From: Chloroflexota bacterium
GTDB taxonomy: Bacteria; Chloroflexota; Limnocylindria; Limnocylindrales; CSP1-4
Assembly: GCA_003171065.1 (NCBI GenBank)
Contig: PMXQ01000050.1
Span: 1 to 36,979, forward strand
Reading direction: 5' to 3'
DNA length: 36,979 nucleotides
The position numbers were made by a program, and so were the translations under genes. Below are positions 7,805-26,737 of the stretch, one piece after another. The notes under the pieces are model-generated. The model searched no databases and was not told where the DNA came from. It worked only from the letters and a program-made list of their open reading frames with translations. Every line of letters begins with the position of its first letter. Position 1 is the stretch's first letter.

Positions 7805-7824
7805 CACCGGACAACTGAACAAAG

Positions 7825-7914
7825 ACAGGGGAGCGCCGGCGCGGCGCTGAGAGTGCGGAGCTAGATCCGCAGACCCTTGGAACCTGATCCGGATCATGCC
7901 GGCGAAGGGAGTCA
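7825..7914 (+). ncRNA. TPP riboswitch (THI element)
   Basis: The aptamer shows the conserved THI-box parts in order. ACAGGGGAGC opens it, with a P2/P3 stem (AGCGCC pairing GGCGCT), followed by CTGAGAGTGCGG. A local hairpin TGCGGA/TCCGCA comes next, then GACCC, and the signature ACCTGATCCGGATCATGCC closes with GGCGAAGGGAG. It binds thiamine pyrophosphate and lowers expression of the downstream genes. A terminator-like hairpin that contains the next ribosome site begins 10 bases later, so control may be at transcription, translation or both. Confidence 0.97.
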
Positions 7915-7923
7915 AGCACGGAG

Positions 7924-7953
7924 CACCTCTGTCGAGTCCGATGGAGGTGTTTT
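7924..7953 (+). terminator. Riboswitch expression platform: terminator that masks a Shine-Dalgarno
   Basis: CACCTC (7924-7929) pairs with GAGGTG (7944-7949) and is followed by TTTT (7950-7953), a short intrinsic terminator. The 3' arm together with the preceding base is GGAGGTG (7943-7949), a near-perfect Shine-Dalgarno 5 nt from ATG 7955. Forming the hairpin would therefore both stop transcription and hide the ribosome site. Confidence 0.75.
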
Positions 7954-22081: not shown

Positions 22082-22768
22082 TCAGGCCTCTTCGGCCCCG
22101 GTCATCGTCTCGACGGCGACGCCGGGCAGCTGCCCGAGCTCCGAAAGAACCTTGTGGTCGAGGCCACCAACCGGCAGCCGCAGCTCCAGATCCATGAAGT
22201 GACCGCCCTTCGACTTCTCGCTCTGGACGCTCAAGATCTCGACCCGGTTGGACAGAAGAACCCGCGAGACGCCGGCGAAAGACTCGAGCTTCTTGAGACT
22301 CAGCCGGACGCGCACCACTCGTCCACCGGACAGCTCCAGCTTGGCGACCAGGCGATGGACGGGCCACAGCGAGAGCATCGCCAGCACGGTGCCCACGGCC
22401 GCCACGAAGTAGGACCCGGTTCCGGCGGCCAGACCCACCGCCGCGACGACCCACAGGCTGGCGGCGGTGGTGAGGCCGCGCACGTTCGTCCCGAACTTGA
22501 GGATCGCGCCCGCGCCCAGGAAGCCGATACCGGTCACGATCTGGGCCGCGATGCGGCTCGGGTCAACGCTGCCGGTGCCCGCAACCGCGTGGAAGCCGTA
22601 GATGGAGAGCACAGTGAAGATCGCCGAGCCCAGCGACACGAGCATGTGGGTCCGCACACCCGCCTGGTGGCCGTGGATCTCGCGCTCCAGGCCGATCATC
22701 GCCCCGAAGACGGCGGCCACAACGAGCCGCGTTGAGATGTCGATCTGAAACTGCAGATCGGTGGGCAC
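22082..22768 (-). CDS. MgtC/SapB family membrane protein
   Basis: The product is 228 aa. Four or five hydrophobic helices occupy the first about 140 residues, with the family signatures G-A-M-I-G-L-E-R-E-I-H-G-H, G-V-R-T-H-M-L-V-S-L-G-S-A, I-V-T-G-I-G-F-L-G-A-G-A-I and T-T-A-A-S-L-W-V-V-A-A-V-G. A cytoplasmic C-terminal domain of about 85 residues follows. MgtC relatives are tied to growth at low Mg and, in pathogens, survival in macrophages; some interact with the ATP synthase. The biochemical role here is unknown. GTG 22768 has GAGGTGA about 6 nt upstream. It converges on the hybrid kinase with a 12-base gap. Confidence 0.9.
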   Translation of the reverse strand: MPTDLQFQIDISTRLVVAAVFGAMIGLEREIHGHQAGVRTHMLVSLGSAIFTVLSIYGFHAVAGTGSVDPSRIAAQIVTGIGFLGAGAILKFGTNVRGLTTAASLWVVAAVGLAAGTGSYFVAAVGTVLAMLSLWPVHRLVAKLELSGGRVVRVRLSLKKLESFAGVSRVLLSNRVEILSVQSEKSKGGHFMDLELRLPVGGLDHKVLSELGQLPGVAVETMTGAEEA

Positions 22769-23085
22769 GCCACGTCACCTCGAGCTGGGCAGGGCGAGCC
22801 TGCGCCGCGCGGCGTCAGCCCGAGTCTGCTGGCCGCAGTGTAGAGTCCGGATCCGCCGGTTGGCGATCGGAGGACTGGGGTTGAGCTGCGGATGTGTCGG
22901 ATTCCCTAGGGAAACACCCTTGCCCCACTCGGCTGCGGGCCCGCCAGTACCCCACCGCGAGCCCGGTCGGTACCCTCAGTACGGATGAGCGATTGAGTTT
23001 CTCGGGCCGGAAGCGTTATCGTTCCCCACGCTGCAAGCGGCCTGCGCGGCGACTACTTTCGGGGGACGCAAACAAGGAGTCGGCT
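22769..23085. other. Non-coding region with two promoter-like sites
   Basis: An extended -10 TGTAGAGT (about 22839-22846) overlaps a copy of the CCGGATCCGCCGG motif (22847-22859). A nearer promoter for the miniprotein is CTGCAA (23031-23036), a 17-base spacer and TACTTT (23054-23059). Between them lie about 170 bases of GC-rich sequence with small inverted repeats and no gene I can support. Confidence 0.45.
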
Positions 23086-23154
23086 GTGGATCTCACCAAC
23101 CTGGCTCCGATCGTCCTGGCGTTTGTCGTGATCATTTGGGGCAAGCGCTGGTAG
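23086..23154 (+). CDS. 22-residue single-helix membrane miniprotein
   Basis: GTG 23086 has a perfect AAGGAG (23074-23079) 6 nt upstream, a candidate promoter (CTGCAA, 17 bases, TACTTT) 30-55 bases upstream, and a strong hairpin 17 bases after its TAG. The peptide has a short polar start (D-L-T-N-L), a hydrophobic run A-P-I-V-L-A-F-V-V-I-I-W and a basic end G-K-R-W. That is a minimal single-pass helix with a positive cytoplasmic tail. Its role is unknown; small helices of this size often regulate or stabilise larger membrane complexes. It does not resemble KdpF or CydX, the two examples I compared. Confidence 0.6.
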   Translation: MDLTNLAPIVLAFVVIIWGKRW

Positions 23155-23170
23155 ATCGGATGCGCCGCAA

Positions 23171-23200
23171 GAAACCCGGACTCTGAGTTCGGGTTTCCTT
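23171..23200. terminator. Strong hairpin terminator, possibly bidirectional
   Basis: GAAACCCG (23171-23178) pairs with CGGGTTTC (23190-23197). The stem extends through one G-T wobble and ACT/AGT to a CTG loop, 12 pairs in all. TTTCCTT follows on the plus strand and TTTCTT on the minus strand, so it may serve both the miniprotein and the oppositely oriented LuxR-type gene. Confidence 0.8.
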
Positions 23201-23263
23201 GTGTCCGCCGGACGGCGCGGCGGACGGAGGTGACGGAGGGACGCCGAGGAGGGCTGCCGCATT

Positions 23264-26200
23264 CTACGCGCGCTCGGTGAGCCCCAGCCTGATCGCCGCG
23301 GCGGCCGCTTCCACCCGTCCCGACACGCCGAGCTTCGTCAGGATGTTGCTGACATGCACGGCCACCGTCTTGCGCGTGATATAGAGCTGCCGGCCGATCT
23401 CGGGATTGCTGCGCCCCTCGGCGATCAGCGCCAGAACCTCCAGCTCGCGCTTGCTAAGGCCGAAGTCATGCTGCGCCTGCTGGACCGCCGACGCTGCAAA
23501 GTCGGCGACGATTCCCGACTCCCTGCGGAGCCCGGAGGCGCCGGCCGATTGGCCGGCAGTCGGGCCCGGCGCCCCTGCGCGGCTGCCCGGTGATGGAACC
23601 GCGGGCCGGGCCAGAACTCCAGGCCGACCGCTAGCGGCCCGCGAAGGAGCCCCGATAGGCTCGAGGCGTCCCTCCAGGGCCGCCTCAATCTGCTTGGGGA
23701 GCGGCAGCATGGCGCGCCGTGACAGCTCAGACACGGCCCGCAGGAGTGGCCACGCTCCGAGGCTATAGGCGCCTTCCGCGGCGGCGGTAAGCGGATCCCT
23801 GGCCACGGTCCGGGTGGACCGGCCACGGGCCCGATCGAGCAGAGCCTCGGCCTCCCGCCAGTGGGCCCGGGCAGCTTCGTACGGATCGCCCAGCTGGGCC
23901 CAGTCCGCGGCCAGCTGCGTCCAGGTGGCCGGGTCGTCGTGACCTTCGATCCGAGCCCGAAACGCGCGGGCCACTCGGATCGCCAGATCCGCCTGGCGAC
24001 GCGACCCGAACCTGGTCGGAACGCCGCAGCCCTTCACTACGGCCTCGGCCTGCAAGATGATCGGGAGACTCCGCTCGCGGGCGGCCGCCAGGGCAGCGAG
24101 GTCCCGGCGGCGGTGCGCGTCATCGGCAATGGTGGCGTCCACCTCCAGGCAGGTCGACGCCATGCGCGCCATCAGCAGCCAGTCCTCGGTGTCGCTGACC
24201 TTCTGCCAGCCGCGCTCTGCCGCCCGGCGGGCATCGACGAGGTCCTCCTGCCAGAGCGCGTAGGCAGCCGCCGTCTGCTGGGCCGGCACGGCGAACTGCG
24301 GGTCCTGGACGGTCTCGAGCGCGAGGAGGAGCTGCCCAAGCAGTCTGCCGGCAGACTCGCCCGCGCTCATGGCGACTTCGACCGTCGCGAGATTCAGGAG
24401 TGGCGAGAGGAACCAGATGCCCACAGGGTTCCAGCTCAGAGCGTCCAGACAGAGCCGGCGGCACTCAGGCCAGCGGCCCATGAAGTACAGCGATTCGGAG
24501 GCGTTGGCCCGCAGGAAGTTGCCGTATACCGTAGCCTGACCTTCCCGCTCGGCTTCCGCGATTCCCTCGTAGGCCATGGCTATCGCCTCCTCGCGGCGCC
24601 CGAGCAGGTCCAGGACGGTGGTGAGGTTGGCGTACACCCGGAACAGGTCGTCGAGCCGGCCGAGCGCCGCGGCGTCGACCAGCGTCTGGCGCAGCATCTC
24701 CACGGCCGGTTCGGGCTCCTCTCCCCAGGCCTCGGCCACGGCCAGCGTGCACGTGGCGTGGAGGAGCTCCTGGCGAGCCTCGTCGCCGACCTCGGTCGCC
24801 ACCGCGACCGCCTCCTGCGCGTACCGCCTCGCTTCCGAGAAGACCCCCTCGAGCATCCGGAACTGGGCCAGGGAGCCGAGGACGCGGGCCCGAGCTGCAG
24901 TCGGCTCGCGCGGGACGAGATCGACGGCCCGCTTGTAGGCCGCGAGCGATCCCTCCTGGTCGCCCGACGCGCGGCGGTACCGGCCCAGCTGCTCCATCAC
25001 CAGGCCGAGTGCGAGCCGCTCGTGCGGATCGTCCAGGGCGGCCGCGGCGGCCTCGCAGTAGGCCGAGGCACGAGCCGGGTCGCCGGCGGCGAAGGCAGCC
25101 TCGGCGGCCCGAACATACAGGTCGGACAGAGGCGGCGCGTCTTCCCCCAAACGCACGATCTCGTACAGGCCGAGGGCCTTCTCGTAGTGGGCGAGCGCGT
25201 CCGCTCCGGCGTCGAGGGCTTCGGCCGCCGCGGCGGCGGCCAGGGCTGCCTGCTCCGCCTCGGCCAGCTGGTGGGCGGCGAGGTGATGCGCCAGGGCGGC
25301 AGCCGGCTGCGGTGGAATGGCTGCGACGGCGTACGGTGGGGCCGCCTCCGCGGCCGACGACTCAGAGGCCCGATGGACGGCTCGTGAACGAGGGTATTCG
25401 TGAGCCGGCAGCCCCATCGGCGCGTCGGCGACTGCGGCTTCGGGCCCTGGATCGCCTCGCGCGGCGGCGGCAAGCGCGGCATGGTAGCGCCGCTTCGTCG
25501 CCGGCAGCAGATCGGTGGCGATAGCTTCGGCGATCAGCTCGTGGCGGAACCAGATCCGGCGTTCGCGACCACTCGCAGTGAGCCGCCCATCGGCAACCTC
25601 GACCAGGAACCCGTGATCGAGCCCCTCGGCCACGCCTGCGGCGATGTCCCCGTCCAGGCCGTCACCCATGCGTCCGCCGCTCGTCGAGCGCGGCGGTCGC
25701 GCCGGCGCCCGTCGCTCGAACTCCGTGGCCATCGCCATCAGCATCGGCCGCGTGACCGGCTCGCCGGTCAGGGACAGAAGCCGCAGCACGCGGCGGCACT
25801 CCGGGGAACGGAGTGAGGAGCGAGCCGTCACGAGCCGCTCGAACGAGCCCGCCAGAGAGACGCCGGAGAGCTCGCGCCTAGCCGCGAGCAGCTCCTCGGC
25901 GACGAGCGGGTTGCCGCGCGACCGCTCGGCCACGAGCAAGAGCGTCGTGGACGAGGGTCGCCCGCCCTCGATGGCTTCGATGAGCTGGCCCAACTCGGCC
26001 CGGTCCAGCGGCCCAACCTCGGCACTGACAACGGACGGCGTGGCGGCGAGAGATGCCAGCGTCGCCCGCAACGGATCGGAGCGCAGCAATCGGTCGGGCT
26101 GGTATGTCAGGACCAGCATGACCCGCTGGCCCCGCGAGACTCGCGCCAGGAAAGTGGCAAGGCTGCGGGTCGCGGCATCAGAGTAGTGCATGTCCTCCAG

Positions 26201-26737
26201 CAGCAGCGCCACCGGCTGGCGCTGGCCGAGCCGCTCGAGCAATCCCAGGACCGCCTCCAGCATGCGCGCCTCGCGCCACTCGGTGGCGACGACGCGCGGT
26301 CGTACGGGCAGCAGCTCCAGCGTCGCCAGGCGCGGCCGCAGGCTCGGCACCAGCCGGGCGATCGCGTCGCCCGTGGGGCCCACCAACGCCGCCAGGGTCT
26401 CATCCGAGACGGGCTGCAGCAGACGCTCCAGCGCCGCGCTGATCGGGGCGTAGGGCACGCCCGAGGTGGCCGCCATGGCGACCCCGTGGACAGCCGCGAA
26501 CGGATCCGCGAGCGCGCCGATGCGCCGCTCCGTCTCGGCCAGGAGTCGCGTCAAACCCAGGCCCGCGGTGCCCGAGAGAATGAGCGCGTTGGGCCTGCCG
26601 TCGGCCACGCTCTGCAACCCGACGGCCATTCGCTCCAGCGGGCGCTCACGTCCGACGAACCGGTCGCTCCAGAGCCTGCGGTGCGAGGAGCGCCCGTCGA
26701 AGCCGCGTCCGCCGCTCCGATCGATGCTGTTAGTCAT
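23264..26737 (-). CDS. Large ATPase-LuxR transcriptional regulator (LAL type) with degenerate Walker A
   Basis: The product is 1157 aa. Residues about 28-300 are an AAA/STAND-like ATPase region beginning [11 protein letters not shown]. Its Walker A reads G-T-A-G-L-G-L-T, with Leu (TTG) where the family has the catalytic Lys. The Walker B-like segment [10 protein letters not shown] is intact. The middle 600 residues are Ala-rich helical repeats of TPR character. The C-terminus is a LuxR helix-turn-helix ([15 protein letters not shown], then [18 protein letters not shown]). Relatives are MalT-like regulators switched by ATP and a ligand. Loss of the Lys suggests weak or no ATP hydrolysis, or control by protein binding only. 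The gene is divergent from the DNA methyltransferase. Confidence 0.88.

Follow-up and report, generated by a model that had tools for sequence, protein, structure and literature searches.

Small membrane proteins of the MgrB, AcrZ, KdpF and CydX type are single-helix regulatory proteins that adjust a membrane partner, while dual-function small RNAs and RNAs with C-rich anti-Shine-Dalgarno (anti-SD) loops, such as S. aureus RNAIII, are a known system of another kind. The Fst/Ldr toxins (Fst, LdrD, SprA1 and Lpt) are described as peptides of 29–35 aa with one proline-bearing membrane helix and a charged C-terminus; the Fst mRNA is reported to hide its Shine-Dalgarno (SD) sequence in a stem-loop (PMC8309996). 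An AP-x3-G motif is quoted for Fst, Lpt and SprA1. As to input signals, most c-di-GMP-I riboswitches are reported to sense c-di-GMP and rare variants c-AMP-GMP (PMC7266159). The locus analysed here encodes a 22-residue peptide belonging to what we term the RW peptides. The window peptide is similar in size to small membrane proteins of the MgrB/AcrZ/KdpF/CydX type and is likewise predicted to form a single helix, but RW peptides have no sequence match to these proteins and no constant membrane-protein neighbour that would hint at a partner. We regard the family as new but of a familiar type, with a riboswitch link that is unusual and self-control by the RNA possible.

The window, by which we mean the whole 36,979-nt stretch of Chloroflexota DNA analysed, holds a complete small transcription unit on the plus strand between two Pfam-assigned genes on the minus strand: a divergent upstream gene for an MgtC-family membrane protein (22082..22768) and a convergent gene for a large LuxR-type regulator with the domain order AAA_16 - TPR_12 - GerE (23264..26737). 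Its promoter (22993..23022, +), read by eye and by comparison, consists of a -35 element TTGAGT (22993-22998) and a -10 element TATCGT (23017-23022) with an 18-nt spacer, and just 5' of the -35 lie three GTAC half-sites (22947, 22970 and 22979; 22947..22985, +), a candidate site for an activator or repressor. With a start site placed about 7 nt past the -10, the 5' UTR would be ~57 nt long (23029..23085, +). The SD sequence AAGGAG (23074..23079, +) lies within the conserved stretch AGGAGTCGGC(n)GTG, 6 nt from the start codon of the ORF VDLTNLAPIVLAFVVIIWGKRW (23086..23154, +), which runs for 22 codons from GTG (23086-23088) to TAG (23152-23154). A near-symmetric hairpin, GAAACCCGGACU-CUG-AGUUCGGGUUUC (23170..23198, no strand assigned), is read from the sequence (23171-23197) and its fold, with 12 bp and a 3-nt loop; the tail behind it, CTTGTG, makes only a weak U-tract, and the hairpin is probably a two-way terminator common to the small gene and the convergent LuxR-type gene. 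An earlier note had proposed a complete tiny gene here on the strength of the promoter pair, AAGGAG at 6 nt, 22 codons and the 12-bp hairpin, and each of these parts can be read in place.

A generic scanner run over 22500–24000 flagged no sigma-70 promoter and no terminator, as both elements fall below its thresholds, and their support is therefore comparative. Four SD-led ORFs of 15–40 aa, counted with our script's own SD pattern, occur on the two strands of the window, and that of the small gene has the most hydrophobic 15-mer (best Kyte-Doolittle value 2.54). AlphaFold2 predicts a single helix over residues 2–31 of a 32-aa relative from the same genus (G015), with a mean pLDDT of 85.4 and a pTM of 0.39. 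The earlier claim of a hydrophobic helix with a basic end is supported by the hydrophobicity of the peptide, by this predicted helix and by retention of the [K/R]RW end among relatives; from its hydrophobicity we infer that the peptide would lie in the membrane. An Rfam scan of the window returned a TPP riboswitch (7817-7927, +, 73 bits) as its only match, with no GEMM-class aptamer 5' of the small gene.

A 281-bp query covering the locus matched 18 of 61 genomes, namely 18 of the 21 from the window's genus and none of the 40 others. The three genus genomes initially missed were later found to carry ORFs of 30 aa (G014), 20 aa (G012) and five residues (G008, MGKRW), so that an ORF of 15–32 codons ending in [K/R]RW is kept in 20 of the 21 genus genomes, the window's own included. 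Across the genus the ORFs have 32, 30, 27, 23, 22, 21, 20, 15 or 5 codons, and despite these differences the frame is open in all 18 matched loci from a common SD and start to a [GW][KR]RW end, with at most one further residue. Frame 0 is free of internal stops throughout the 18, while frame +1 is interrupted in 14 loci and frame +2 in one; hydrophobicity is confined to frame 0 (best 15-mer averaging 2.28, with 0.19 and -0.37 for the other two). The hydrophobic stretch is short in the shortened forms of G002 and G016. In G008 (L130:1501-1518) the helix is gone and five codons, GTG GGC AAG CGC TGG followed by TAG, are left, yet promoter, AAGGAG, start, GKRW and a terminator-like hairpin are retained. 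In only one of five close pairs compared do synonymous changes exceed the others; with no synonymous excess, it is hydrophobicity, a proline and the C-terminal end that are kept, not each residue. The hairpin arms ACCCGG and CGGGTTT are present in 18/18 loci, as is the adjoining C-terminal coding end of the LuxR-type gene (one locus shows just 28 aa of it because the contig ends there), while the MgtC-family neighbour is not constant (more than 60% identity over at least 90 aa in 8/18). Loss of the peptide, or a broken frame, where the flanks persist had been named as the observation that would speak against a gene; when this was looked for, end, frame, SD and terminator proved to be kept in 20 of 21 genomes, with G008 the exception. 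This genome comparison confirms the ORF at 23086-23154 as a genuine stand-alone gene kept across related bacteria.

Upstream of the ORF, the pair TTGnnn-15-19-TAnnnT, a pattern fixed after the loci had been seen, is present at 16 of 18 genus loci, where dinucleotide shuffles would give 0.7. Together with an ORF kept in 20 of 21 genomes, this agrees with the earlier argument that chance would hardly supply every part. GTAC is also enriched in the 220 nt upstream of the 18 loci, with 41 occurrences against 13.0 expected (3.2-fold), and upstream of 25 further loci, with 56 against 15.8 (3.5-fold). The latter were non-duplicate and hand-chosen, two of them from the window's genus, and both GTAC expectations come from single-base shuffles, as opposed to the dinucleotide-preserving shuffles used elsewhere. 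Two GTAC sites stand 2 nt apart in 7 of the 25.

We define RW peptides by a hydrophobic helix, a C-terminus in [KR]W (most often [KR][KR]W) and, for the majority of long forms, a basic N-terminus, and searched for relatives with successive models (A1, A6, A7 and A8), taking matches at E <= 0.002. In the family-rank group this gave 85 matches of ~30–33 aa, some being doubtful, spread over 18 of 27 genera and 57 of 107 genomes; model A8 does not pick up the short forms found in the window's genus and leaves the window genome (G000) uncounted, so 57/107 is neither floor nor ceiling. Thirty-one matches are convergent, within 4 kb, to a LuxR-type regulator of the kind beside the window gene, LuxR position having been assigned for 48 match rows rather than all. 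In three g15 genomes the distance from peptide to LuxR-type gene is 2.5–3.4 kb, with an ORF between the two, identified by eye as sensor-kinase-like, in both of the g15 loci that were read. Another 31 matches lie on the same strand, 29–171 nt behind a c-di-GMP-I-GGC aptamer (RF03167). The 62 LuxR- or riboswitch-linked matches represent 47 genomes and 16 of the 27 genera, five genomes holding both classes; the remaining 23 include likely false matches in long frames, plus G085, which is beside a LuxR-type gene. In 39 LuxR 3' flanks, ORFs ending in [KR][KR]W number 16 on the convergent strand and none on the other; seven of these flanks (L104, L110 and L125-L129) were known beforehand to hold the peptide, a fortieth flank, the 137-base L118, was left out, and the G008 ORF was entered from an upstream TTG. 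One locus, L104 (G078:C3), carries two tandem LuxR-linked RW peptides with an SD-like sequence before each. Phylum-wide, matches outside the family-rank group came at E 0.001–0.006, mostly in long frames, and inspection of two short-frame matches (G347 and G503) found no RW peptide at the match.

The riboswitch-linked members set this family beside the c-di-GMP-I (GEMM) regulons, which they resemble in the 31 peptides directly behind RF03167 aptamers, but the window gene has no such riboswitch. Counted from the aptamer side, 86 RF03167 matches were taken in the group at E <= 0.001 (a match exceeding Rfam's own cut-off is present in 41 of 107 genomes), and an RW peptide stands directly behind 25 of them, against none of 20 aptamers sampled outside the family-rank group. 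Several of these sampled aptamers precede ORFs that look secreted by eye. In a separate Rfam scan of 20 loci, the gathering score was reached beside the peptides in L141, L143 and L144 (two RF03167, one RF01051). The most elaborate arrangement is found in G061 (L210, G061:C392:4000-6700), where three c-di-GMP-I-GGC aptamers and five RW peptides form a head-to-tail array of ~1.4 kb. Ordered pairs occur in L144, L211, L212 and L213, each with a first ORF of the MKxxLARF type followed by a longer one ending in EAGxRW plus one residue. The search turned up no copy linked to a riboswitch in the window's genus, whose short forms the model misses; directly behind the single aptamer of the window's own genome (G000:C89:6603-6679, L185) comes a 322-aa ORF that matches nothing in Pfam. 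Elsewhere in the phylum, in a different family, c-di-GMP-I-GGC aptamers occur as neighbouring doubles (G471:C1:3655104-3655355, G276:C1:1923683-1923946 and G395:C64:44003-44259). The RF03167 -GGC aptamers are of c-di-GMP type by family assignment, with c-di-GMP as their putative ligand.

What such a peptide does can be read in several ways, and the main rival to a regulatory membrane peptide is a type I toxin: a small hydrophobic product whose synthesis would damage or depolarise the membrane and which mRNA folding, together with an RNA antitoxin, would normally keep silent. Like the Fst/Ldr toxins, RW peptides are small, with one predicted helix containing a proline and a charged, basic end; 14 of the 18 loci retain AP ahead of the helix, SD pairing within the mRNA is possible, copies stand in tandem in G078 and G061, and CCUCC loops in g13 and g15 would be able to pair with an SD. 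The likeness does not extend to the glycine of AP-x3-G, four places beyond P, which alignment A1 shows in 1 of 18 loci, nor to the [KR]W end. No toxin family profile in Pfam, NCBIfam or PADLOC matched, although such profiles have weak power for peptides of 22–33 aa. More generally, Pfam and NCBIfam gave no plausible family (matches at E 0.008–0.24 to unrelated-looking families), PADLOC matched no family, PHROGs offered three unnamed families, all weak (E 0.047–0.15), and we found no description of the RW peptide family in the literature searched, mostly without subscription full texts. On the antisense strand of the transcript, promoter-like pairs number 0 in 18 loci against 0.7 expected, a comparison with little power. 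A fixed place beside one regulator (18/18), with riboswitches ahead of sister copies, does not resemble a mobile addiction module. A cis-antisense type I module loses weight because no antisense promoter was seen (to the small extent that this test allows), because the glycine is rare and because the locus is constant; we consider a toxin unlikely, while still giving it real weight.

In a second rival the gene serves chiefly to make a small RNA, regulatory or dual-function, with loops that pair to SD sequences, and the short ORF is secondary. Third-base choice suggests that the RNA, too, is constrained. GC3 is 0.85 over 11 genes of the window, yet the Ala codon column of the LAP segment has T as its third base in 17/17 sequences (1.5 expected) and the CTT column in 14/17 (1.1 expected), and KRW has its Arg written as CGC in 17/18 (7.1 expected). 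The first of these columns falls in a predicted pairing, P1, of GGAGUCGG (23076-23083) with CUGGCUCC (23101-23108), which would bury the SD and leave the start codon in a loop (23076..23108, +; RNAalifold and minimum free energy (MFE) fold of the window transcript). The other two fall in P2, predicted within the ORF between CUGGCGUUUGUC (23116-23127) and GGCAAGCGCUGG (23140-23151) by the MFE fold (23116..23151, +). It is at the codons predicted to pair, in P1 with the SD and in P2 as CUGGCGCUUGUC x GGCAAGCGCUGG, that the constraint is strongest. Over 16 aligned sequences, 99.1% of P1 cells are paired, mostly invariant, and 88.8% of P2 cells. Pair covariation equals that of shuffles (16 of 18 sequences, L012 and L018 left out), a test that is uninformative because P1 pairs hardly vary; model R1 was built on 11 of the 18.

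The window transcript folds better than its shuffles (z -2.60), and the window ORF better than its synonymous recodings (z -4.0). Over the 18 loci the recoding signal is weak, a mean z of -0.65 driven by few loci, with an SD-pairing z of +0.36, and a stem spotted by eye in the 5' UTR has a mean z of -0.56, no clear gain in stability over shuffles. The LAP segment is missing from G016, and the predicted fold there (L018) pairs the SD with another stretch. The LAP codons likely hide the SD in the mRNA; in view of the weak recoding signal and the covariation at shuffle level, we grade this as likely and go no further.

Beyond this third-base constraint, an RNA product would account for G008, which keeps promoter, SD, start, GKRW and terminator-like hairpin with five codons only, and for the loops of g13 and g15. 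There, CCUCC stands in the loops of both the post-stop and the terminator hairpin (7/7 and 4/4 loci, respectively; anti-SD loops in L125-L129, L066, L147, L037, L039, L148 and L149), and over 22 loci CCTCC, a word chosen after the loci had been seen, occurs 42 times against 15.3 expected. RW transcripts resemble dual-function and RNAIII-type RNAs in being short, structured and ORF-bearing, a likeness to which g13 and g15 add CCUCC loops. The window's genus, however, lacks CCUCC in the 3' part (0 in 18 loci, 2.4 expected), and frame, hydrophobicity and C-terminal KRW survive the changes of length, so that we regard the RNA as main product as quite improbable.

A role as leader peptide or attenuator, acting on a gene further along, might be suspected from the very short ORF, the hairpin that follows it and the C-terminal Trp; for the window gene it is contradicted by gene order, the next gene downstream being convergent on the opposite strand in 18/18 genus loci, and even in the two g15 loci where the same-strand sensor-kinase-like ORF comes next it lies past a terminator-like hairpin, which leaves this reading only a very slight probability. 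That the ORF is a chance frame in a conserved intergenic region, as substitutions that are not mainly synonymous might suggest, is contradicted by its conservation in 20 of 21 genus genomes and by homologues of constant context in 16 of 27 genera, and we give it practically no credence.

We return to the regulatory membrane peptide. Comparison shows a promoter, SD, frame, C-terminus and terminator that are conserved as predicted elements, relatives in other genera and sister copies behind putative riboswitches. That the gene encodes a single-helix membrane peptide of a lineage-special family, with a role in the envelope and an mRNA that restrains its own start, is our best explanation, held with evenly balanced confidence. 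Besides conservation and context, it is favoured by the GTAC enrichment, by the third-base constraint at codons predicted to pair and by the window ORF's better fold relative to its recodings; counting against it are the weak recoding signal over 18 loci, covariation at shuffle level, the lack of a synonymous excess in close pairs, the lost helix of G008, the short hydrophobic stretches of G002 and G016, and the failure to find a riboswitch-linked copy in the window's genus with a model that misses its short forms. A regulator at the GTAC sites would switch the promoter, and at LuxR-linked loci the neighbouring LuxR-type regulator may control this GTAC-operator promoter. The transcript would fold with its SD paired to the LAP codons, and translation would start only once this pairing is relieved. 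The peptide would then insert in the cytoplasmic membrane with its basic-aromatic KRW end at the interface, and may tune a membrane-protein partner or the state of the envelope within a regulated programme. In sister genera, the input to that programme would be a c-di-GMP-class signal acting through the riboswitch, a link that points to a cyclic-dinucleotide, surface-lifestyle programme.

More tentatively, as a possibility about which we keep considerable doubt, the lineage as a whole may use tiny regulated membrane peptides of 5–34 codons, fed in some genera by a cyclic-dinucleotide riboswitch, often in tandem pairs, and in other genera by a GTAC promoter on the LuxR side. Their mRNAs would carry their own anti-SD elements (codons here, 3' loops elsewhere), each transcript being perhaps both messenger and translation regulator, and the pairs would form a membrane switch for surface lifestyle.

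An overlooked 69-base ORF has in this way led to a family with a testable input signal, given the 25 of 86 aptamers that directly precede RW peptides. The c-di-GMP-type riboswitches before some members are a first lead to the role of the RW peptide family, and the link between aptamer and peptide would allow a binding assay and a reporter to tie the family to cyclic-dinucleotide signalling. Within one genus, moreover, the gene ranges from 32 codons down to 5 while promoter, start, C-terminus and terminator stay constant, which raises the question of how short a functional gene can be.
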